Below are positions 19,368-28,627 of a DNA stretch of 64,000 nucleotides, piece after piece. The stretch comes from Actinomycetota bacterium. Lineage in GTDB: Bacteria; Actinomycetota; Thermoleophilia; Solirubrobacterales; Solirubrobacteraceae. Each line of letters begins with the position of its first letter. Position 1 is the stretch's first letter. The stretch spans positions 372,001 to 436,000 of the forward strand of contig VAXW01000002.1 in assembly GCA_005884115.1 (NCBI GenBank), written 5' to 3'. Under the pieces are notes generated by a model. The model was not told where the DNA came from. It did no database searches and saw only the letters and a program-made list of their open reading frames with translations. A program made the position numbers and the translations under genes.

Positions 19368-20222
19368 TCAGGGGAACAACGTGAGATGCTGACCCTGCGG
19401 CGCGCCCACCGGGCGGGCGGGCGGCCCCTCCAGCGAAGGATGCGCGCCGTGATGGGCCACGACCAGCATCGAGCTGGGGAACCGCCACGCGTCCAGGTCG
19501 ACGTCGTGATCGCGTCCGCCGAGCCGAAGACGCTGCGAACAGGATCCATGTTCCCCTGGCGTGAGGTCGGCGAGCACGCTCTTGAAGGACTCTCCGCGCG
19601 CCAGGAAATGCTGGCTTGCGCCCCACACCAGACGCATCGCCTCTCGTCCACCGCCGCGTGGGTGGACGCCGCGACGAAACATTAGTATCGACCGGTCGGC
19701 TCTCGCACGGGCCACGGCCCACGCCGCCACCTGCTGAGAAACGTCGTAGCGGGCCACGAGCTCCCACAGCCCGTTCGGCTCGGGCGGTGCGGAGCGTGCG
19801 GCCGGGGACGGCACGAGTAGCAGCGTCGCGAAGTGGTGGCAGAAGCGCTCCTCCAGGTGGTCGGGTCTCGAGGCTCGGGTGGGCGGTGGCCCGGGCTCGT
19901 AGAAGAACGTGTGCGCTAGCTCGTGTGCCAGAACGAACCGCATGTGGCGCCGCGCACCATCCGCCTCGGCGGCACGAGCCCACAGCCGCGAGTCGACGAC
20001 GGCGTTGAACCCTCGCTGTGTCGGCACCAGCATCGCAGTGTGCTGCGCGGAGCCGACATTGAGCAGCCGACGTACCACGCCCACGCGCGCTGCACGGCAA
20101 GCGTCGCGCATGGCTACCGCCTCGGAGTCCTTCACGAGCCCGCGCCGAGCGAGTGCGGCAAGCTCCCCCGCGGCCGACAGGCATGGTCCGCCGCCAGACG
20201 CGGTTCTGGGCCACCCGCCCAT
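19368..20222 (-). CDS. ImmA/IrrE-type metalloprotease-like protein
   Basis: The 284-residue protein has the zinc motif HELAH at residues 100-104 inside RFVLAHELAHTFFYE, and a downstream RPDHLEERFCHHFATLLLVP helix that carries the third ligand, the standard ImmA/IrrE core. The C-terminal half (VSQQVAAWAVARARADRSILMF and beyond) also follows the family plan and ends in an unassigned domain. Known members cleave repressors to switch on stress or mobile-element genes. The ATG overlaps the stop of the HD gene (TGATG), so the two are coupled. It may act as regulator or effector of the HD enzyme. Confidence 0.82.
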   Translation of the reverse strand: MGGWPRTASGGGPCLSAAGELAALARRGLVKDSEAVAMRDACRAARVGVVRRLLNVGSAQHTAMLVPTQRGFNAVVDSRLWARAAEADGARRHMRFVLAHELAHTFFYEPGPPPTRASRPDHLEERFCHHFATLLLVPSPAARSAPPEPNGLWELVARYDVSQQVAAWAVARARADRSILMFRRGVHPRGGGREAMRLVWGASQHFLARGESFKSVLADLTPGEHGSCSQRLRLGGRDHDVDLDAWRFPSSMLVVAHHGAHPSLEGPPARPVGAPQGQHLTLFP

Positions 20223-22231
20223 CAGCGCACCGGGTCCCCGGGCTCGTTGGACCCGTCCCGTGGATCGTCCAGCGGGATCTCCGCCTGCACTCCGGACTCG
20301 CCTGAACCTTCACCCGCGCTTCCCGAGGGTCTCTCGGGCGCTTCCTTGGCCTCACGTGCCTCCCACGCGTGCCGGTACTCGTCGGTCACGGCCTCCAGCG
20401 TCGGCCGCTTGCCGATCCCCACTGAGCCGTCGTAGAACGCGGGAACTAGCTCCTTCAGCTCGCGCTCCTGGGGTCGGGTGAGGTTCAGGATTTCCGCGGC
20501 GTGCCGCCGCGCCACCTTCGCCGGGCGGACCGGGTCATCATCGTCGTCCCACTCGCTTATGTGCAACTGCTCGGCGATGGCCGCGAGCAGCGCTTCGCGA
20601 CGCAGGTCATCGGCGCGCACGTCACGGTGCACGAAGACCTCCAACGCCCACAGATCGCGGTGGGAGTCGTAAATATCGCTCCCACGCTCGTGCCCCGAGC
20701 TCAGCTCGCGGCGCAGCATCGTCTCGATCAGCTGTTCGTCATCGACGAGCACGAGCGCCGGCTTCAGGCGCATTCGCTCCGGCGGGATCCACAGCACCGC
20801 ATGCCACGCTGGGTCGATACCGGCGAACGTTGCGGCTGCCTCCTCAACCCGACGGCGCTCGTCGGGCTCGCGCCCGTAGGTCTCCCAGAGCCGCTTGGCG
20901 TGCACCCGTGCGCTGATGCGAGCGACCGGCTTGAATAGCTGCCGGTCGAGCAGAGCGCCGGCTAGGTCTCGCACACCTCGCCAGCGCGCGTCCTCTGCGA
21001 GGCGGCCCCCCTCGGCGAGCAGGTACTCGAGCAGCCCCTCGTCGCCGTGGCGCAGCAGTGTCGTTTCGAGCTCCGCGCGCGCCGCGGCCATCAATTCGCG
21101 TGCGCCGGCCGCTTTGAGCTGTTTGGCGACATGGGAGCGCAGTGTGTCCAGGTCACCTCGGTCGACGCGCTGTAGCACCTGCCGCAGCGCCCCGTCCGTT
21201 GCGCTCTGGCGATCGAGCTCGTCCATCCAGAGTGCGTCGGCGTACAGCTGCAGAAGCTTGCCGACCATTGCGTCAGCCGCGAGCTTGGCGTGGTGGGCGA
21301 GAGCTCGCTCGGACAGCTCGTAGCGGTAGCGCAGATACTTCAGCAGCTCGGTAAGCGTGTCCTTGCGCTCGCGGCCGGCGCGGACCACGCGCAGCACCAT
21401 CCGGGAGGGCTTGAACGGGTCGTCGCTGCGCGACACGTACATCGAATCGAGAAACCTGTGCCCGAGCGCGGCGGGGAGGCCCGTGAAACGGTGATCGCGC
21501 GTGAGGTAGTCCATCAGATCGGCTGAGATCGTGTTGCCGACGATGTCCTGCGCAAACGGGTAGCTGATGTCGGCGACACCCGGGTCCTCGCCCTCCTCCG
21601 TGGGGTCGGGCTTGAATCGCGCGGAGAGCACGAGCGCGAGGATGTCGTCCTTCAGGGCCTTGCCGGCGAGGGAGACTCCACGCTCGATCGCGTCCCGTGC
21701 CGTAGGGTCGATACGCTGCCAGAGCTTCTCGAACCGATCGAGATTCTCATCGTGCGGTTCGAGCAGCTGCAGCTCGTCCTCGACCGAGTGGCCGAACGGC
21801 ACGTGGCAAAAGTCGTGTAGAAGCGCGCCGAGGCGCGTGAGCAGGATCGCCTCCGCGACCCGCCTCAGGTAGTCGGGGCCGCCTGCGTGCGCCTCTCGCT
21901 CCCACTGGCCAAAGAGGTCAGGGGTCGCGTTGGGCTCGTCACGCTGTTCAAGGACGATATCCAGCAGCATCTGCGCCGCCACCACCGTTCCGAGCGAGTG
22001 CGAGAAGCGGGTGTGCGTCGCGCCGGGGTAGACGAGGTGGGTGCTGCCGAGCTGCTTGACCCGCCGTAGCCGCTGAAAGGGCGGGGAGTCGACGAGCAGG
22101 CACTCCAGCCTCGTGAGACGAACATCGCCGTGCACTGGGTCTGTGATGACCTTCCCGGGAGCAAACAGATCAGGGTCGAGCCCGTAAGGGCGCGTTTCGC
22201 GCATCGCGGATGAAAGACCCCACTTCGGCAT
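20222..22231 (-). CDS. HD-domain phosphohydrolase (SAMHD1/dGTPase-like)
   Basis: The 669-residue enzyme starts at ATG 22231 with DPVHGDVRLT, QRLRRVKQLGSTHLVYPGATHTRFSHSLG (residues 54-81) and LLHDFCHVPFGHS with the HD pair at 139-140, then DLMDYLTRDH. This is the SAMHD1-like group of HD proteins, which hydrolyse dNTPs or related phosphates in the cytosol. The C-terminal 300 residues are helical and unassigned. It is translationally coupled to the IrrE-like gene and divergent from a nucleoside deoxyribosyltransferase 96 bp away. A role in phage defence through nucleotide depletion is an inference from family and context. Confidence 0.88.
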   Translation of the reverse strand: MPKWGLSSAMRETRPYGLDPDLFAPGKVITDPVHGDVRLTRLECLLVDSPPFQRLRRVKQLGSTHLVYPGATHTRFSHSLGTVVAAQMLLDIVLEQRDEPNATPDLFGQWEREAHAGGPDYLRRVAEAILLTRLGALLHDFCHVPFGHSVEDELQLLEPHDENLDRFEKLWQRIDPTARDAIERGVSLAGKALKDDILALVLSARFKPDPTEEGEDPGVADISYPFAQDIVGNTISADLMDYLTRDHRFTGLPAALGHRFLDSMYVSRSDDPFKPSRMVLRVVRAGRERKDTLTELLKYLRYRYELSERALAHHAKLAADAMVGKLLQLYADALWMDELDRQSATDGALRQVLQRVDRGDLDTLRSHVAKQLKAAGARELMAAARAELETTLLRHGDEGLLEYLLAEGGRLAEDARWRGVRDLAGALLDRQLFKPVARISARVHAKRLWETYGREPDERRRVEEAAATFAGIDPAWHAVLWIPPERMRLKPALVLVDDEQLIETMLRRELSSGHERGSDIYDSHRDLWALEVFVHRDVRADDLRREALLAAIAEQLHISEWDDDDDPVRPAKVARRHAAEILNLTRPQERELKELVPAFYDGSVGIGKRPTLEAVTDEYRHAWEAREAKEAPERPSGSAGEGSGESGVQAEIPLDDPRDGSNEPGDPVR

Positions 22232-22327
22232 CAGATTGAGGTTACGCCTCGACTCGGCTGGACACGGCCGCGTGGGTCTGCTCGATAGCGAGCCCGCGAA
22301 GAACGCTGAGGGTATCGTGGGGCGGCC

Positions 22328-22816
22328 ATGGCGACGGCCTACATCGCAAGCCCCCTGGGGTTCTCGGAAACGACGAGGGCCTACTACTGCGACGTGCTTC
22401 TGTGCGCCATCCGTGACGCTGGAATCGAGCCGCTCGACCCATGGGCCGATCCAACGGCCGAGCACGAGTTCGCCGAGGCGCAGGCATTGCCCGCGGGCGA
22501 GCAGCGGCTGGCGGCGCTGCGGGCCGTCAATGGGCGCCTCGGCGAGGCGAACGCCCGAATGATCGGTAGAGCGGACGGCATGCTCGCCGTCCTTGACGGC
22601 GCTGACGTCGACTCTGGCACCGCCGCGGAGATCGGGTTCGCGGCTGCGCAGGGCAAGCCGATCGCGGCGCTGCGTCTTGACGTCCGCCAGACGGGCGACA
22701 ACGAGGGCGCGGCTGTCAATCTCCAGGTGGAGTATTTCATCGCGGCGACCGGCGGGGCGATCGAGCGCTCGCTGGACGCCGCCGTGGCGCTGCTCGCCCG
22801 CCTGCTGGCCCCGTAA
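22328..22816 (+). CDS. Nucleoside 2-deoxyribosyltransferase family protein
   Basis: The 162-residue protein matches the family: YIASPLGFSETTRAYYCDVLL at the N terminus, IEPLDPWA, and the loop MLAVLDGADVDSGTAAEIGFAAAQGKPI (residues about 85-112) with the catalytic-type Glu in TAAEIGFA. These enzymes exchange or hydrolyse the base of deoxynucleosides or their monophosphates. It shares the 96-bp intergenic region with the HD operon and may be co-regulated with it, so both may act on deoxynucleotide pools. Confidence 0.88.
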   Translation: MATAYIASPLGFSETTRAYYCDVLLCAIRDAGIEPLDPWADPTAEHEFAEAQALPAGEQRLAALRAVNGRLGEANARMIGRADGMLAVLDGADVDSGTAAEIGFAAAQGKPIAALRLDVRQTGDNEGAAVNLQVEYFIAATGGAIERSLDAAVALLARLLAP

Positions 22817-22895
22817 CCGGCGGCTAGCTGTCGCTACCAGGCAGCCTCCTGCCATGGGAGAGTCAGATATCGCGACCAGGCGCCACACTAGAGGT

Positions 22896-23171
22896 ATGCC
22901 ACCGCCGGCCGAGGAGTTCAGACTGGAGTGGCTCGGCCCTTCTGAGCGCGCCGCGCTCGATCACCTTCTGCGTGAGTTCAAGCTCCGCGGGTGGCGTGAC
23001 GAGGACGATGCGGCGGGCGCGATCGTTGGTGTACTCGTTCGTCGCGGAGGTAGCGCCTCGTGTAGGGCGGTGCTTGGAGCAGTGCCCGCGGACTTCCTCG
23101 TGCGTAACGGAATCCGCCGAGCCGATGTCAGGCGGCTACTTCAGCGGATGAGTTTCGCTTCCGCCCGGTGA
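22896..23171 (+). CDS. Small protein sharing a domain with the facing nuclease-like gene
   Basis: The 91-residue protein (MPPPAEEFRLEW...) contains GWRDEDDAAGAIVGVLVRR and then PADFLVRNGIRRADVRRLLQRM. The N-terminal 80 residues of the convergent protein at 23181-23999 carry the same pattern, GWRDPDDAASAI and PRDFLERNQIDAQRLRRAL. So this is a stand-alone copy of that helical domain. It is convergent with that gene, 9 bp apart. Function unknown; it could be a competitor, antitoxin or partner of the larger protein. Confidence 0.65.
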   Translation: MPPPAEEFRLEWLGPSERAALDHLLREFKLRGWRDEDDAAGAIVGVLVRRGGSASCRAVLGAVPADFLVRNGIRRADVRRLLQRMSFASAR

Positions 23172-23180
23172 TGTCCCGTC

Positions 23181-23999
23181 TCAGCCACTCTGGCTGCGAA
23201 GCTGGTCGTCGGCCTGCTGACCGATCTCGGTGAGCGTTCCGTCGGTCCCGATGTAGCCGGCGGCGAGTAGCAGCCGCGCGGTGTCTACGCCGTCCCAGAC
23301 GCTCGCCTGCGCGTTGGGGACGGCACCGGTGGTGCGGAGTGCAATGACGCCATAGCGCAGCTGGTCCCTTGTCTCGTTGGGCACCTCGTGGACGTGCTGG
23401 ACCACAGATAGCTGGGCCCGTTGGGAGAGCAGCCTGACGATCTGGTCTCCGCGTTTGCCCAGCTCTGAGCCGTATAGCGGTCCCTGGACGCTTCGGCCCT
23501 TGAGCAGAAAGGCCGAGGCGACACGTCGACCGCCGAGCTGGACGCGGTCGCTCTCGATGTCGGAGCGCTCGCCGCCCCAGTCCCGGCCGATGTAGGGGTC
23601 GCCGATCACGGTGTGAACGCAGTGCTTGATGACGCGCTCATTGATTTGCAAAGGGGTGCTAAACGCCGCGACGGCCCTAGCGTCGATCGCCCGCACGGTC
23701 GCAAACGAGTCGATCTCGTCGATGCGCAGAAGCTGAACGTCGCTGCTAGCAGAGCCGATGCGGGTTCCGGAGAGTGCATCGCTGAGCGCGCGCCGCAGGC
23801 GCTGCGCATCGATCTGGTTGCGTTCGAGGAAGTCGCGCGGAGTGATGTAGCCGATGTCGACGGCGTCGATTGTCCGCGTGTCGCTCGCAGCGACGGCGAG
23901 GGTGATCGCGCTGGCCGCGTCGTCGGGGTCGCGCCATCCTTGCCGTTGGAAGACTCGCAGGACCGCGTCACAGTAGGCCCGAAGATCGAGTTCGCTCAC
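23181..23999 (-). CDS. Probable PD-(D/E)XK-fold effector with N-terminal helical domain
   Basis: The 272-residue protein starts with the helical domain shared with 22896-23171 (residues 1-80). Residues about 135-215 look like a restriction-endonuclease fold: GRDWGGERSDIESDRV supplies acidic residues, GGRRVASAFLLKGRS the strand with Lys, and LGKRGDQIVRLLSQRAQLSVVQHVHEV the following helix and strand. Catalytic assignment is by pattern only. The C terminus (VDTARLLLAAGYI and beyond) resembles a small winged helix. It is the last gene of an overlapping five- or six-gene operon of DNA-binding-like proteins, sharing ATGA with the gene before it. Confidence 0.6.
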   Translation of the reverse strand: MSELDLRAYCDAVLRVFQRQGWRDPDDAASAITLAVAASDTRTIDAVDIGYITPRDFLERNQIDAQRLRRALSDALSGTRIGSASSDVQLLRIDEIDSFATVRAIDARAVAAFSTPLQINERVIKHCVHTVIGDPYIGRDWGGERSDIESDRVQLGGRRVASAFLLKGRSVQGPLYGSELGKRGDQIVRLLSQRAQLSVVQHVHEVPNETRDQLRYGVIALRTTGAVPNAQASVWDGVDTARLLLAAGYIGTDGTLTEIGQQADDQLRSQSG

Positions 24000-24379
24000 T
24001 TCTTGCGCAGCTTGCGGCGAATTCCCAATGCGGCGTCTGTGACTGAGAGCCGGTAGACCTTGCCGCCTGGGCTACGTCGGTGCATGAAGACGGTGAGGCC
24101 CCACTCGTTCTCAAGCTCGTCCAGCTTTCGGTTGACCGTGTTGGTGGACCATTTGCCCTTGAGCGCCTTAGCCATCTCAGCCTGTCCTCGCTCGCCGTCG
24201 ATCAGCAGGTACACATCGCGCAGTGCGTGATCGTGCTGCATCGCAGCAAGGATTTCTTCCCTGCGCTCTTTGCCCTGAGCACGCAGGAGCGTTCGGGTCA
24301 TCGCCTCAATGTCCCCAAGGTCTTGCTCCATGCGCGCCAGGCGCTTGAATGTCTGCTCGGACTCGGCCGTGACTATCAA
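23996..24379 (-). CDS. Coiled-coil plus winged-helix DNA-binding-like protein
   Basis: The 127-residue protein has an N-terminal coiled-coil-like helix (RLARMEQDLGDIEAMTRTLLRAQ), then DGERGQAEMAKALKGKWSTNTVNRKLDELENEWGLTVFMHR, a winged-helix pattern with recognition helix NTVNRKLDELENEWG and wing around RSPGGKVYRLS. Start is TTG 24379, which overlaps a stop on the same strand. It is followed by the nuclease-like gene with ATGA overlap. Probably a DNA-binding subunit or regulator of the operon. Confidence 0.65.
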   Translation of the reverse strand: MIVTAESEQTFKRLARMEQDLGDIEAMTRTLLRAQGKERREEILAAMQHDHALRDVYLLIDGERGQAEMAKALKGKWSTNTVNRKLDELENEWGLTVFMHRRSPGGKVYRLSVTDAALGIRRKLRKK

Positions 24380-24444
24380 TCCTCGTTCTTGCGAGACGCG
24401 TCGACGGTCTTGCGGACGATGGACCCATTCATCAGCGCCAGCAT
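24376..24444 (-). CDS. Very small hydrophobic ORF (uncertain)
   Basis: From ATG 24444 a 22-residue peptide MLALMNGSIVRKTVDASRKN-E-D would end with a TGA overlapping the TTG start of the next gene. The frame is open further upstream with PAAATVAALTG before the Met, so it may instead be the tail of a longer product that overlaps the gene at 24504-24836. Only its coupling to the next gene supports it. Confidence 0.25.
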   Translation of the reverse strand: MLALMNGSIVRKTVDASRKNED

Positions 24445-24503
24445 TCCAGTGAGTGCGGCAACTGTCGCAGCGGCTGGGATTTTGGTCCCGGCTTCACGAT
24501 GCT

Positions 24504-24836
24504 CTAGTCCTGCTCGACGCCGCCAGCCGGAGTGATGTTGAGGCCGAAGCTGTCGAGGTCGCCGAGATGCTCCAACCGCCCCTCGGGTGACAGCGAGGCG
24601 ATCCCGAGCTGGCGCCAGCGCTTCGACCATTTTCCCACAGCGGCTGTTGAGACGCCGGCGAGGTCCGCTAGCTCGGCGAGACTGCGCTGCCCGTTGGCGG
24701 CGTCATAGGCGCGGCGTTGCGACGCGCTGCCGAGACTACCGTCGATCGTGGCACGTACCTGTGGCGTCGCTACAGCGCGTTGCCAGCGCAATAGCTCGCG
24801 CAGAAGGCTCGTGGTGTCCTCGGCGCCGGCGGTCAT
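24504..24836 (-). CDS. Helix-turn-helix protein
   Basis: The 110-residue protein has a Leu-rich N-terminal helix (TSLLRELLRWQRAVA) and then RRAYDAANGQRSLAELADLAGVSTAAVGKWSKRWRQLGI, a canonical helix-turn-helix in which GVSTAAVGKWSKRW is the turn and recognition helix. The C-terminal tail EHLGDLDSFGLNITP is acidic. It overlaps the preceding gene by ATGA. Architecture (short N-terminal helix + HTH) is shared with the neighbours, suggesting related or co-assembling DNA-binding subunits. Confidence 0.65.
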   Translation of the reverse strand: MTAGAEDTTSLLRELLRWQRAVATPQVRATIDGSLGSASQRRAYDAANGQRSLAELADLAGVSTAAVGKWSKRWRQLGIASLSPEGRLEHLGDLDSFGLNITPAGGVEQD

Positions 24837-25111
24837 CGCCGTTTGCTCGTTGCCCGGGCCGACTTCTTCGCGCCCGGTTTGGTTTTGGGCCTGGCATTGG
24901 CTCTCGTAATCGCCATGCGCACGGCGTCTTCCTGCTTGCCGGTGATCGCAGCGATTGTCTTGTAGCTCAGCCCGCAGCTGTCGAGTAGCACCTCGATGCG
25001 TGCCGCGTCGGGTTCGTCGGCGACCCGCTTTTCGCGCTCGTCGATGAGCAGCGCCGTGATTGCAAGCAGCAGCTCCTCGGCGTTCGGTTGGGTGTGGCCT
25101 GCTGATGCCAT
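24833..25111 (-). CDS. Small sigma-region-4-like HTH protein
   Basis: The 92-residue protein has an N-terminal helix (AEELLLAITALLIDEREKR) and a C-terminal HTH, DSCGLSYKTIAAITGKQEDAVRMAITRA, which reads like sigma factor region 4 (G-x-S-x-x-x-I-A-x-x-x-G). A Lys/Arg-rich tail follows. Start overlaps the next gene by ATGA and follows the previous stop directly (25112). It may be a DNA-binding or RNA-polymerase-contacting subunit; there is no sigma region 2. Confidence 0.65.
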   Translation of the reverse strand: MASAGHTQPNAEELLLAITALLIDEREKRVADEPDAARIEVLLDSCGLSYKTIAAITGKQEDAVRMAITRANARPKTKPGAKKSARATSKRR

Positions 25112-25444
25112 CTAGCCCTCGAAAAGCCCGGTGCTTCGATATGAGACAGATCGCCCGCTCCCGCGGCGGGTCAGTGCGCCGCGACTGACGAGCTCGGCGA
25201 TCCGGCGTTCGACTCTCGGCTGTGACTGTCCGCTCGCTCTGCGTGCAGCTGCCTTCAGTTCTCCCGCTCCGATCCTATCGCCAGCGTTCGCGACCAGCGC
25301 ATTGAAGACCTTGTCGGATTCAAGCTGCTCGCGCTCGCGGGCGAGGTGGTCTCGGAGCCCGACCAGGATGAGCGCAATTAGCAGATCGAGCTTCTGCTCG
25401 ATCGCGCCGCCATCGGTCAATTGCGTGCGTGCCTCGCTTCCCAC
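25112..25444 (-). CDS. Winged-helix protein, first gene of small-HTH operon
   Basis: The 110-residue product starts at GTG 25444. It has an N-terminal helix (IEQKLDLLIALILVGLRDHL) similar in pattern to those of the next genes, and a C-terminal winged helix: VFNALVANAGDRIGAGELKAAA, then PRVERRIAELVSRGALTRRG with a wing VSYRSTGLF. It is directly followed without spacing by 24833-25111. Probably a regulator or DNA-binding subunit of the operon. Confidence 0.6.
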   Translation of the reverse strand: MGSEARTQLTDGGAIEQKLDLLIALILVGLRDHLAREREQLESDKVFNALVANAGDRIGAGELKAAARRASGQSQPRVERRIAELVSRGALTRRGSGRSVSYRSTGLFEG

Positions 25445-25520: not shown

Positions 25521-26460
25521 CTACGTGCCCGCGATGCCCAATCGGTGTCGCTTAGAAGCGCGGCTCGCCCACGGCAGTCGCTTGATGGCGCCGCGAAGCT
25601 GGTGGGCGTTCACGCGGGTGTAGCGCTGGGTCGAGTCCAGGTGCTTGCGCCCGAGCAGCTCTTGGATCTGGCGCAGGTTCGCGCCCGCGCTCAAAAGCTC
25701 GGTGGCGAAGACGTGGCGCAGCGTGTGGGGCGTGATGCGCTTACGCGTGTCGACTCCCGCCGCGCGAGCGTAGCGGCGAAAGGTGGCGGTGAGGATCGTC
25801 GGGGAGAGGCGGTTGCCGAGCACGCCCACGAACAGCGCCGGGTGATCGCGCGGCGTACGCGTGTCTCGGTAGGCGAGCAGAAGCGGCACCAGGCCGGGGT
25901 ACAGCGGCGCCACACGCGCGCCCGCCCTTGGCGTTGCGCACACGGATCAGACGGCGGTCGAGATCGACGTCGTCCCAATCCAGCCCGAGCAGCTCCGAGC
26001 GGCGCAGGCCGGCGTAGGCGAACAGGGCCAGCAGTAGCCGGTCGCGCTCGAGCTTGCCGGCGTGGCCCCGGACCCAGACCCCGTCGTAGCAGGGGGTGTC
26101 GAACAGTCGCGAGAGCTCACGGCGATCGAGCACGTCGGGCAGGACTTCGCGCTTCTTCGGCGTGCGCAGCACGTGCGCGGGGCTGCGCTTGAGGTGCTCA
26201 CTCTCAACACAGAAGCGAAAGAAGCAGCGCAGCGCCGCAATCGTGCGCGCCTGGCTCGACGGCGCCGGGCGATGTGTGGCCTCCTCGGCCAGGAACCGGC
26301 GCAGGTCCCCGGTGCGGATCTCAGCCAGCGCCGCGATGCCCCGGCCGCACAGGAACTGAAGACACGCGCGCACGTCGCGCGCATAGGCATTGCAGGTGAG
26401 CTCGGCCAGACGGCGCTCGACACGGCAGTAGATGAGGAAGTCAGACAGGGCATCGAACAT
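25521..26460 (-). pseudogene. XerC/D-like tyrosine recombinase, frameshifted
   Basis: The first frame (26460 to about 25925) has the SAM-like N-terminal domain FLIYCRVERRLAELTCNAYARDVRACLQFL and the catalytic Arg in AGLRRSELLGLDWDD; the second frame continues with VAPLYPGLVPLLLAYRD, the TPHTLRHVFATELLSAG box and LGRKHLDSTQRYTRV with the nucleophile Tyr. The frame changes near 25920 within a G/C-rich run. All catalytic residues are present, so the lesion is recent or a sequencing slip. It could be the recombinase of a second element, as a tRNA-Arg(CCG) fragment lies 1.4 kb away. Confidence 0.8.
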
Positions 26461-26622
26461 GTGCCTCTCGCTTTCGGGCAGGCCCCAGCTCCGTCGAGCC
26501 TCGTATGGCGATTCTCCAGCTTACGGTCGGCCTAACTGGGGATGCGCGCCGGACGCGCGTCAGCCGCTTCAGGCGCACCAAGTGTGCGCTGCCCAACAGC
26601 GCCCGTGATAGGACTTCTCGGC

Positions 26623-27639
26623 ATGGCGGTCTGGACAGTCAAGGCGGGAAGACACGGCGAGCGCGAGGAAAGGTGCCTCGAGCACAGCGTGGTCGGGGGC
26701 CGCTGGGGACGCATCTCTGATCTGAGCGACGTCAGAACTCGGCGCGAACTCAACGCTCTCTGTGAAAGAGAGGAGCCGGAGTGGTCGGCGAAGACCCGCG
26801 CGAACTACGTCGCGCAGCTGTGGTCCCTGCGCGAGCGAATGCTGATCGAAGAGTTGGTGGTGTTGCCGCTCAAGACGACCGGCACCGTGGCCGTGGGACG
26901 TATCTCGGGCCCATACGCCTATCGAACTGATCTAGGCGAAGAGCTCTGCCACGTTCGCCCGGTTTCGTGGATCAAGACCGACCTACCGCGAGACAGCTTC
27001 GACCAAGACCTTCTTTACTCCTTCGGTGCCTTCCTGACGGTTGGGCGCGTTCGTCGCGACAAGGCCGAGGAGCGGATTCTCGCGGCCGCCAGCGGCCAGA
27101 CGCCGGACCTGCAACCGGCGTCCGAGCCGTCTGGCGACGACGCGATCGACGTCGAGGCCGCGCCCGATCCCGCCCAGCTGGCGCGCGAGCAGATCCGCCA
27201 ACGGATCAGCCAGACGATCGCCGGTCACGACTTGGCCTACCTCGTCGGGGCGATCTTCGAGGCACGCGGGTTTTCGGTGACGGCGAGCCCGCCCGGAGCA
27301 GACGGCGGGATCGACCTCCTGATGGGATCTGGTCCGACGGGCCGGGAGAGCCCGCGCATCGTCGGACAGGTCAAGACCGGCCAGGCGGGTGTGGATGACT
27401 ATCGGGCAATCTTTGGTCTGAAGGAGGCGCGCCGCGCAGACCAAGGCCTGCTGGTCGCGTGGGGGGGATTTAGGGGCAACGTCAAGCGCGAGGCGCAGGC
27501 CGAGCACTTCTCGATGGCGCTGTGGGACGCGGACGATCTCCTCGACGCCCTGTTCGGCACGTACGAGCAGCTACGAGAGGACATGAAATCGCGCCTGCCT
27601 TTGAAGCGCACGTGGACGCTCGTCCTCGACCCGGAATGA
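26623..27639 (+). CDS. Mrr-like restriction endonuclease
   Basis: The 338-residue protein has an N-terminal domain (VGRISGPYAYR around residue 85, a small beta-barrel typical of DNA-base readers in such enzymes) and a C-terminal Mrr catalytic domain: LVGAIFEARGFSVTASPPGADGGIDLLMG followed by IVGQVKTG, giving the D...Q-x-K nuclease core, and LLVAWGGF after it. Known relatives cut modified or foreign DNA. ATG 26623 is chosen because the upstream extension has no family-like sequence. It stands alone, divergent from the recombinase pseudogene. Confidence 0.88.
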   Translation: MAVWTVKAGRHGEREERCLEHSVVGGRWGRISDLSDVRTRRELNALCEREEPEWSAKTRANYVAQLWSLRERMLIEELVVLPLKTTGTVAVGRISGPYAYRTDLGEELCHVRPVSWIKTDLPRDSFDQDLLYSFGAFLTVGRVRRDKAEERILAAASGQTPDLQPASEPSGDDAIDVEAAPDPAQLAREQIRQRISQTIAGHDLAYLVGAIFEARGFSVTASPPGADGGIDLLMGSGPTGRESPRIVGQVKTGQAGVDDYRAIFGLKEARRADQGLLVAWGGFRGNVKREAQAEHFSMALWDADDLLDALFGTYEQLREDMKSRLPLKRTWTLVLDPE

Positions 27640-27910: not shown

Positions 27911-28627
27911 CTACGCCGCCGGGAGCCGACTGGCCAGCTCCGTGTGGATGACGCGGGCGTGCTCTGCAGTCAACGACCCCGCTCTGTTTAGTCGCTTAGC
28001 CAACCGACGAGGGTAGTAGAGCGGGAAGCCGTTGATCTTGAGTGTCCGTAGAACCGGAAGGCCGCTATCGGCCATGAATCCCTCTGGCGCAAGAAAGCAC
28101 AGGCACCCACAAACGGGGACCTTGGGCGCCACGTGTGCAAGCGCATCCTGCACGACGGCGATCTGCTTGACAAGGCCGTCAACGAGCTTGGTCTGGTCAC
28201 GGCCGGCGATCTTGAGCTTCGACGCGCCGAACAGCGGCGTGACCACCCTGATCGCTCCGCGGTAGCGCTTGGCATCGATCACGTACACGCCCGTGGCGGC
28301 CACGGCGATGTGATCGATGTTGGCGCGACTGTTCGGCATCCGCCGGTCGTGGAGCATCAGGACACCGGGACACCTTCGGGCGAGCGCTGCCGCAAGGAGC
28401 CGCTCGCCCTGCGCACCAATCGCCCAGTTCTTCTCATCGGCCATCTGACGCTTCTCCTTCGCCGACGGACCAAAGAGCGTGACAATCAGCCAGCGCAAAC
28501 TCCACTTGTGCGGCGCGTTCTGGAGTCTTCGTTGACGCCGACGCTCGGCCTCGCGGCCAGCGCTACCTCCCGCGACGCCTGGATCTGGCTCCTCTTGCGC
28601 ACTCATCCCGGTGGGTATCGACAACAC
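27911..28627 (-). CDS. NERD-domain protein (nuclease-related)
   Basis: The 238-residue protein has a charged N-terminal region, a short hydrophobic segment (LRWLIVTLFGP), and a NERD domain: WAIGAQGERLLAAALARRCPGVLMLHDRRMPNSRANIDHIAVAATGVYVIDAKRYRG; the E...D-x-I-D-H...D-A-K pattern matches the nuclease-like core. A KLVDGLVKQIAVVQDAL helix and a C-terminal strand-rich part follow. An alternative start is ATG 28606. Such proteins are frequent in islands; substrates are unknown. It begins just beyond the tRNA fragment. Confidence 0.87.
   Translation of the reverse strand: MLSIPTGMSAQEEPDPGVAGGSAGREAERRRQRRLQNAPHKWSLRWLIVTLFGPSAKEKRQMADEKNWAIGAQGERLLAAALARRCPGVLMLHDRRMPNSRANIDHIAVAATGVYVIDAKRYRGAIRVVTPLFGASKLKIAGRDQTKLVDGLVKQIAVVQDALAHVAPKVPVCGCLCFLAPEGFMADSGLPVLRTLKINGFPLYYPRRLAKRLNRAGSLTAEHARVIHTELASRLPAA

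Follow-up and report, generated by a model that had tools for sequence, protein, structure and literature searches.

What do five closely packed genes of a Solirubrobacteraceae genome do together, when four of them encode small proteins of helix-turn-helix (HTH) type and the last a protein with a nuclease-like core? We analysed a 64,000-nucleotide stretch of an Actinomycetota bacterium (assembly GCA_005884115.1, contig VAXW01000002.1; G000:C1:372001-436000), here called the window, from a genome of 3.14 Mb in 10 contigs that is 87.8 % complete. A first-pass annotation, made from the letters alone, had described the five minus-strand open reading frames (ORFs), here genes A to E, as the best candidate for a new system, whose products would form a complex that reads DNA and cuts or signals. 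Its observation as a whole is confirmed and its interpretation is supported in part, in that the gene set is conserved and the last protein has a nuclease core, whereas the supposed contact between genes C and D is absent. The reading that we prefer, and to which we give an even chance, is that the products of this conserved accessory operon form a restriction-like DNA nuclease of several subunits, with a variable small-HTH DNA reader and without a methyltransferase in the operon.

A gene set kept together across phyla

We interrogated the distribution of gene E and of the small genes beside it. The occurrence of E is patchy and the locus is accessory: E was found in its own and 2 other genomes of the 399 searched in its class, and in its own and 3 genomes of 396 in its phylum. 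One locus of the class search (L003) contains four tiny HTH ORFs, followed by an E homologue. A scan of the genome contigs with the single window E sequence returned no relative; relatives came to light only through the class search and an alignment of cores. Used as a profile, an alignment of six E cores (A3) matched 134 relatives on genome contigs from many phyla, 80 of which were examined, and 3 relatives on viral contigs. With L003 E as query, tblastn found 2 plasmid records among 72,556 and 1 phage record among 50,697; when window E and L010 E served as queries, the same two plasmid records came back. Of the 86 loci surveyed, 80 are on genome contigs, 3 on viral contigs, 2 on plasmids and 1 on a phage.

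Eight seed hidden Markov models (HMMs; T1-T8) were built from 22 loci and the window, and searched at E<=0.01 against 13,529 ORFs from six-frame translation of the loci and of the 64-kb window. A small-HTH array adjoins E in 40 of the 86 loci, and 18 of these 40 gave no HMM seed; five were accepted by hand (L009, L012, L017, L030 and L036), of which four had just one upstream match. The remaining 46 loci, among them the 3 viral and both plasmid relatives, have zero T1-T8 matches. Array loci carry on average 3.25 array genes upstream of E on the same strand (6 in 2 loci, 5 in 8, 4 in 6, 3 in 13, 2 in 5, 1 in 5 and 0 in 1). Within the window A-D are the only T1-T8 matches, in the order T8-T3-T6-T7-E. 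A Bathyarchaeota locus (L042) reads T8-T6-T6-T3-T7-E, so that all five window kinds are present in one archaeal operon. In a Thermoproteota locus (L053) the order is T8-T6-T6-T8-T7-E and T3 occurs only on the opposite strand, and a Kribbella locus (L087) reads T4-T3-T3-T3-T7-E; T7, the type of gene D, is immediately 5' of E in the window and in all three. The array is variable. Ordered make-ups number 35 among the 40 loci, a count inflated by arrays cut at contig ends (L017 surely) and by borderline type calls; L012 and L013, whose E proteins are 69 % identical and which both have ample upstream sequence, carry T1-T1 and T3-T6-T1, respectively. These results together show that the gene set is kept together across phyla. 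A conserved multi-gene set without a name, found from bacteria of the candidate phyla radiation (CPR) to Thaumarchaeota, merits testing even if its function differs from the one proposed below. In two Alphaproteobacteria (L015 and L033), an array T4-T1-T1-T3 lies on the minus strand, opposite to E and ~600-1600 nt upstream of the E match, in the same order in both.

The four small proteins had been assigned different HTH types, which is borne out for B and C by likeness to HTH families, below cut-off in each case (B to sigma region 4, PF08281, E 5e-4, over residues 41-71; C to HTH_28, 1.9e-4). For A and D the Pfam and other library profiles gave nothing convincing, yet both align across phyla. 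A aligns with proteins of two archaeal operons (L016 4143-4454, 20 % identity; L026 3990-4304, 25 %), and by eye the C-terminal ends of all three are alike. B aligns with 11 array proteins (A8, 14-44 % identity), and the resulting profile matched the region 4 of an extracytoplasmic function (ECF) sigma factor in the PDB (E 9.5e-5). C aligns with 9 array proteins (A6, 16-29 % identity, W74 invariant) and D with its counterparts (A5, 19-32 %); C and D are the sole matches of these two profiles in their own genome. Array-protein profiles point to MarR/Csa3-, sigma-region-4- and Hin-like HTHs, the likeness of T2 to Hin being sub-threshold, as is that of gene C to IS630/IS481 transposase HTHs. The T2 profile also matched a chain named 'CAP REPEAT' (8vd6, 1.8e-14); no stretch passes alone, and the match was not used.

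All five ORFs are in the ORF list at the positions claimed (Table 1). They had been said to overlap by ATGA or TTGA or to abut. A and B indeed abut (TAG ATG), B and C share an ATGA, and the D/E overlap is GTGA; C and D do not touch, and the 124 nt between them contain nothing but the tail of another frame, the TGA of which overlaps the TTG start of D. Because the annotated interval begins at 22896, it encloses one more ORF on the plus strand, F, which is a member of the set and was absent from the annotation's reasoning. By codon position, the G+C content of B, C, D and E resembles that of coding sequence (76-81 % at the third position, 40-55 % at the second); the pattern is less distinct in A (73/51/71) and F (77/54/68). 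F is 46 % identical to residues 7-73 of E (E 3.4e-6). In Kribbella an F-like ORF (within L087 6473-6832) lies directly downstream of E, and the F-domain HMM, in whose seed it is not included, matches it at E 2e-8; no further like ORF was found at E<=1 in the searched ORFs, where L042 and L053 have short sequence past E.

Table 1 Genes of the operon and features around it in the window
Feature	Position	Strand	Description
Gene A	25112..25444	-	110 aa, small winged-helix-like protein of type T8 with the C-terminal end 'YRSTGLFEG'
Gene B	24833..25111	-	92 aa, sigma-region-4-like HTH, type T3
Gene C	24504..24836	-	110 aa, HTH of 'KW' type, T6
Gene D	23996..24379	-	127 aa, winged-HTH-like, type T7
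Gene E	23181..23999	-	272 aa, N-terminal 'RGW.D.DD' domain and C-terminal PD-(D/E)XK-like nuclease core (~residues 91-260)
Gene F	22896..23171	+	91 aa, stand-alone paralogue of the N-terminal domain of E; convergent with E, 9 bp apart
Mrr_cat protein	26542..27639	+	PF04471 1.7e-17; PADLOC candidate PDC-S02 2.7e-114; ~1.1 kb from gene A
Tyrosine-recombinase-like gene	25521..26460	-	two overlapping frames (25741-26460, 25521-25943), apparently frameshifted; directly upstream of A
HD-domain protein	20222..22888	-	PF01966, weakly dGTPase-like
NERD protein	27911..28627	-	nuclease-related domain, PF08378 1.8e-11
ORF	22328..22816	+	presumably nucleoside 2-deoxyribosyltransferase-like, by motif

The core of E and its family

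Residue conservation was counted over 77 E sequences. E121, D140-W-G-G-E144, D147, K167, G168, G181, D185 and Q186, which include the putative active-site residues, are invariant in 77 of 77, and R189 is present in 76; the invariance of DWGGE..D and G..GDQ is partly forced by the search patterns, that of E121, K167, G168 and (mostly) R189 is not. The profile-found L097 retains the motif; its E core forms the C-terminus of a 666-residue open frame (L097 5215-7212, minus strand).

The first-pass annotation had read the last protein as PD-(D/E)XK-like, and structure prediction and Foldseek agree on a restriction-endonuclease-type core. AlphaFold2 predicts window E with a block-wise predicted local distance difference test (pLDDT) score of 88-98 over residues 91-270 and of 44-69 over residues 1-90. 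Its core elements (helix 121-132, strands 148-155 and 158-167, helix 186-191 and strand 197-202) follow the PD-(D/E)XK order helix-strand-strand(-strand)-helix-strand; D147 and K167 lie at either end of the beta hairpin, and the same order is predicted in L010 E. In the PDB, Foldseek placed MspJI first (4f0p, probability 0.93, E 1e-2) and EcoT38I second (probability 0.63); among viral proteins (BFVD) the top match was a phage 'restriction endonuclease' (probability 0.98, E 3e-3). By these models, the predicted nuclease fold is the best-supported part of the mechanism proposed below. No credible Pfam family was found for the 77 core members, the best being ERp29_N (E 0.0022). A PDB sequence profile search with E returned only three designed or armadillo repeat proteins, which we judged spurious.

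On a quick tree of 74 E cores, the label for presence or absence of an array changes 5 times, versus 24.9 times in shuffles. One 39-row branch (99 % SH-aLRT) contains 36 of the 40 array rows and spans archaea, CPR, Planctomycetota, Acidobacteriota, Pseudomonadota and others. A second array type consists of the window, Kribbella and two archaeal rows. Window E groups with L087 (85 %) within a fork (91 %) that includes L042, L053 and 11 array-less rows, and its exact place is unsure because its branch is long (2.11). Proteins of this second type align along their N-terminal part, with the motifs 'RGWRDPDD' (window), 'RGLEDYDD' (L042), 'RGFQDYDN' (L053) and 'RGWSGDQG' (L087). Main-clade E has a winged helix at the N-terminus instead of this domain: the model of L010 E (mean pLDDT 93, predicted template modelling score 0.62) begins with one (probability 1.00 to many winged-HTH proteins), which is of a generic kind and has TubR as its best fold match. 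The first 50 rows of this fold search are winged helices only, and it is therefore uninformative on the nuclease part. Alignments A9 and A10 omit L008 (which shares its contig with L003), L025 and L055 (both lacking an intact E frame), L048, L066, L069, L074, L078-L080, L083 and L084; L005-L007 were further dropped for A10 and the tree.

The family also occurs in methyltransferase-helicase operons. In 6 of the 46 array-less loci, a methyltransferase of one blastp cluster lies just upstream of the E homologue (L051, L061, L063, L066, L073 and L074, the last truncated), and five of the six share a helicase cluster downstream of it. Specifically, an N6_N4 methyltransferase (PADLOC MTase_III) is followed by E and then by a UvrD helicase in L051 (2513-8594) or a ResIII helicase in L061 (3680-8735). 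Judged from their sequences, these operons appear restriction-modification-like, with the unnamed nuclease as a separate subunit. Other large neighbours scanned in array-less loci are a TPR protein (L049), a weak Dsr1 match (L070), an HTH protein (L071), a Vgb lyase (L084) and HipA (L086), with none in L072. In L007 (2196-6403) the E homologue is followed by genes that we read from their translations as SIR2-like and HerA-like; homologues of these two genes also occur together close to E in L058.

A proposed mode of action and its alternatives

How might these proteins work together? In the reading that we prefer, E would supply the catalytic PD-(D/E)XK-type core together with a DNA-binding or docking N-terminus of its own. 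The small HTH proteins (A-D in the window, elsewhere up to six upstream of E, of eight types) may pack on each other and on E via their N-terminal helices, and the resulting complex would jointly read a long composite DNA site, where E would then cut; exchange of HTH genes would change the target. That the array varies while the enzyme beside it is conserved suggests a role of the HTH genes in specificity, and not in repression alone. Since the operon has no methyltransferase, self would be spared because the host chromosome lacks, or conceals, the site or DNA state that is read, and the presumed role is defence against mobile DNA. F, a free copy of the N-terminal domain of E, probably competes for the docking surface of E, restraining it. 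A search of the window for a cognate methyltransferase, made with PF01555 and PF02384 only, found neither; the 87.8 % complete genome has one PF01555 match, on another contig, and no PF02384.

More tentatively, we suggest a re-targetable, modification-free class of restriction in bacteria and archaea, in which HTH subunits line up on the nuclease, the choice and order of their genes spell the target, and lineages shuffle these genes. If true, a modular protein code of several small HTH subunits per nuclease would tell foreign from own DNA without methylation in bacteria and archaea alike. Such a code would also bring a nuclease family for which no model exists, and would illustrate composite DNA recognition as it occurs in nature.

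Several observations weigh against this reading, besides the inflated make-up count and the part of the motif conservation that the search patterns forced. An acid two positions before K167, as in the (D/E)xK of PD-(D/E)XK enzymes, is present in 0 of 77 sequences (A in 36, L in 18, I in 9, G in 8, M in 3, V in 2 and Q in 1, L006), so that catalysis depends on an assumed substitute; a migrated acid, E144 or D185, may take its place. The profile-found L098 retains the ILKG lysine and lacks DWGGE and GDQ. Fold matches reach E-values no better than 1e-2 (PDB) and 3e-3 (viral), and hhalign found no relation between the E family and the Mrr_cat protein of the same window (probability 0.1). L022, L041 and L046 belong to the main array clade and have no array match. 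The N-terminal helix said to be similar in the four small proteins is visible by eye as a leucine-rich start, and an amphipathic helix is unsupported in most members: only 7 of 60 had at most 5 % of shuffles as amphipathic, the window values being 9.7 % for C, 13.7 % for D, 63 % for A and 93 % for B. Among 102 array-operon neighbours scanned of 365, the genes are mixed, housekeeping included, making the defence-island evidence weak for the array half. Nor are methyltransferases entirely missing from these neighbours: five match PADLOC mad2 and two match type II methyltransferase models; the mad2 profile also scores a type IIG enzyme adjoining L032 and is hence methyltransferase-like.

A toxin-antitoxin-like module is the strongest competitor, and we consider it unlikely. 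E would be a DNA-damaging toxin, the small HTH proteins antitoxins and autoregulators that keep it in check, and F a further inhibitor, which would suit the tight coupling of most genes, the position of the HTH genes mostly 5' of the nuclease, the possible role of F as an immunity protein and the patchy accessory distribution. Up to six upstream HTH genes, in so many ordered make-ups, are nevertheless more than an antitoxin needs, E of the main clade carries a winged helix itself, and the E homologues in methyltransferase-helicase operons resemble restriction subunits.

We regard as improbable that the operon encodes a regulator of transcription or chromatin, a DNA-binding set in which the nuclease fold of the last protein is only a binding platform. 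The likeness of the array proteins to MarR/Csa3, sigma region 4 and Hin, and the absence of the ExK acid from all 77 sequences, speak for such a set, but archaea and bacteria alike retain E121, K167 and R189, residues with which a platform alone could dispense, and besides the arrays no neighbour cluster is present in more than 5 array loci, so that no common target gene is seen. Least probable of all is a site-specific endonuclease of a mobile element, with the HTH proteins and E carrying out the homing, excision or integration of a mobile cassette, or regulating one: the patchy accessory locus adjoins a broken tyrosine-recombinase-like frame, C and T2 have their sub-threshold likeness to transposase HTHs and Hin, and L036 has a gene between array and E that reads as transposase-like in translation, but the Pfam families listed for the scanned array-operon neighbours (25 of 112) include no integrase or transposase, and the 3 viral and 2 plasmid relatives lack an array match.

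Known systems and neighbouring genes

The restriction-like nuclease that we prefer was compared with known systems. Among modification-dependent enzymes of the MspJI/Mrr type, MspJI is the best PDB neighbour of the E model and likewise consists of a DNA-binding part and a nuclease part. In contrast to them, E is encoded alongside several separate HTH proteins and lacks the acid at K-2 (with Q in one of 77), and no sequence similarity between the two was found. The type III-like restriction-modification operons L051 and L061 have nucleases of the same family, with cores 38 % and 33 % identical to that of window E, and similarly tight gene spacing; they differ in having no HTH-array match and in encoding, besides the nuclease, a DNA methyltransferase and a helicase (UvrD or ResIII). 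The HTH of B resembles region 4 of ECF sigma factors, but B has only 92 aa and no region-2 match, its region-4-like stretch staying below cut-off, and other loci have several such genes consecutively.

A 2013 survey of HEPN domains describes unrelated proteins that combine a winged HTH, a restriction endonuclease and HEPN, and proposes that the winged HTH recognises invading DNA directly, without a modification subunit (PMC3710099). A HEPN domain is shared in kind with the HEPN-like gene beside 5 array operons. The proteins described there are giant single chains with a superfamily I helicase and a transglutaminase, whereas here the HTHs are separate small genes. The operon could be a dispersed version of this idea.

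The claim of a new system is supported within PADLOC, Pfam, NCBIfam, PHROGs and the literature searched. Among the PADLOC-DB 2.0.0 component models, 0 families match A, D, E or F, and the best values for B and C are 0.041 and 2.5e-4 (PDC-M05A); PHROGs gave nothing convincing for the window genes, and no PADLOC, Pfam or NCBIfam model explains A-E. No description of the operon was found in a literature that was largely without subscription papers, or in the searchable text of PMC12839542, PMC10853773 and PMC13092281. Within these sources the component folds are familiar, while the system as a whole appears new; if the reading above holds, present catalogues miss it because its parts are small and unannotated.

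Regarding the neighbours of other array operons, a PADLOC PDC-M34B match lies in or beside 5 of the 40 (L020, L021, L025, L029 and L038). We read this gene as Swt1-like HEPN because PF18731 matches 2 of the 102 scanned neighbours and the translations contain an R-N..AH-type motif. One further neighbour cluster is common to 4 array loci and some others to 2. A partition system of TubZRC or ParABS type would have a gene for a segregation NTPase next to that of the DNA-binding protein; the clusters that recur in array loci are the HEPN-like one and those just named. Around the window operon, the HD-domain gene was found only in its own genome and, distantly, in one other of 24 genus genomes, indicating that the region is accessory.

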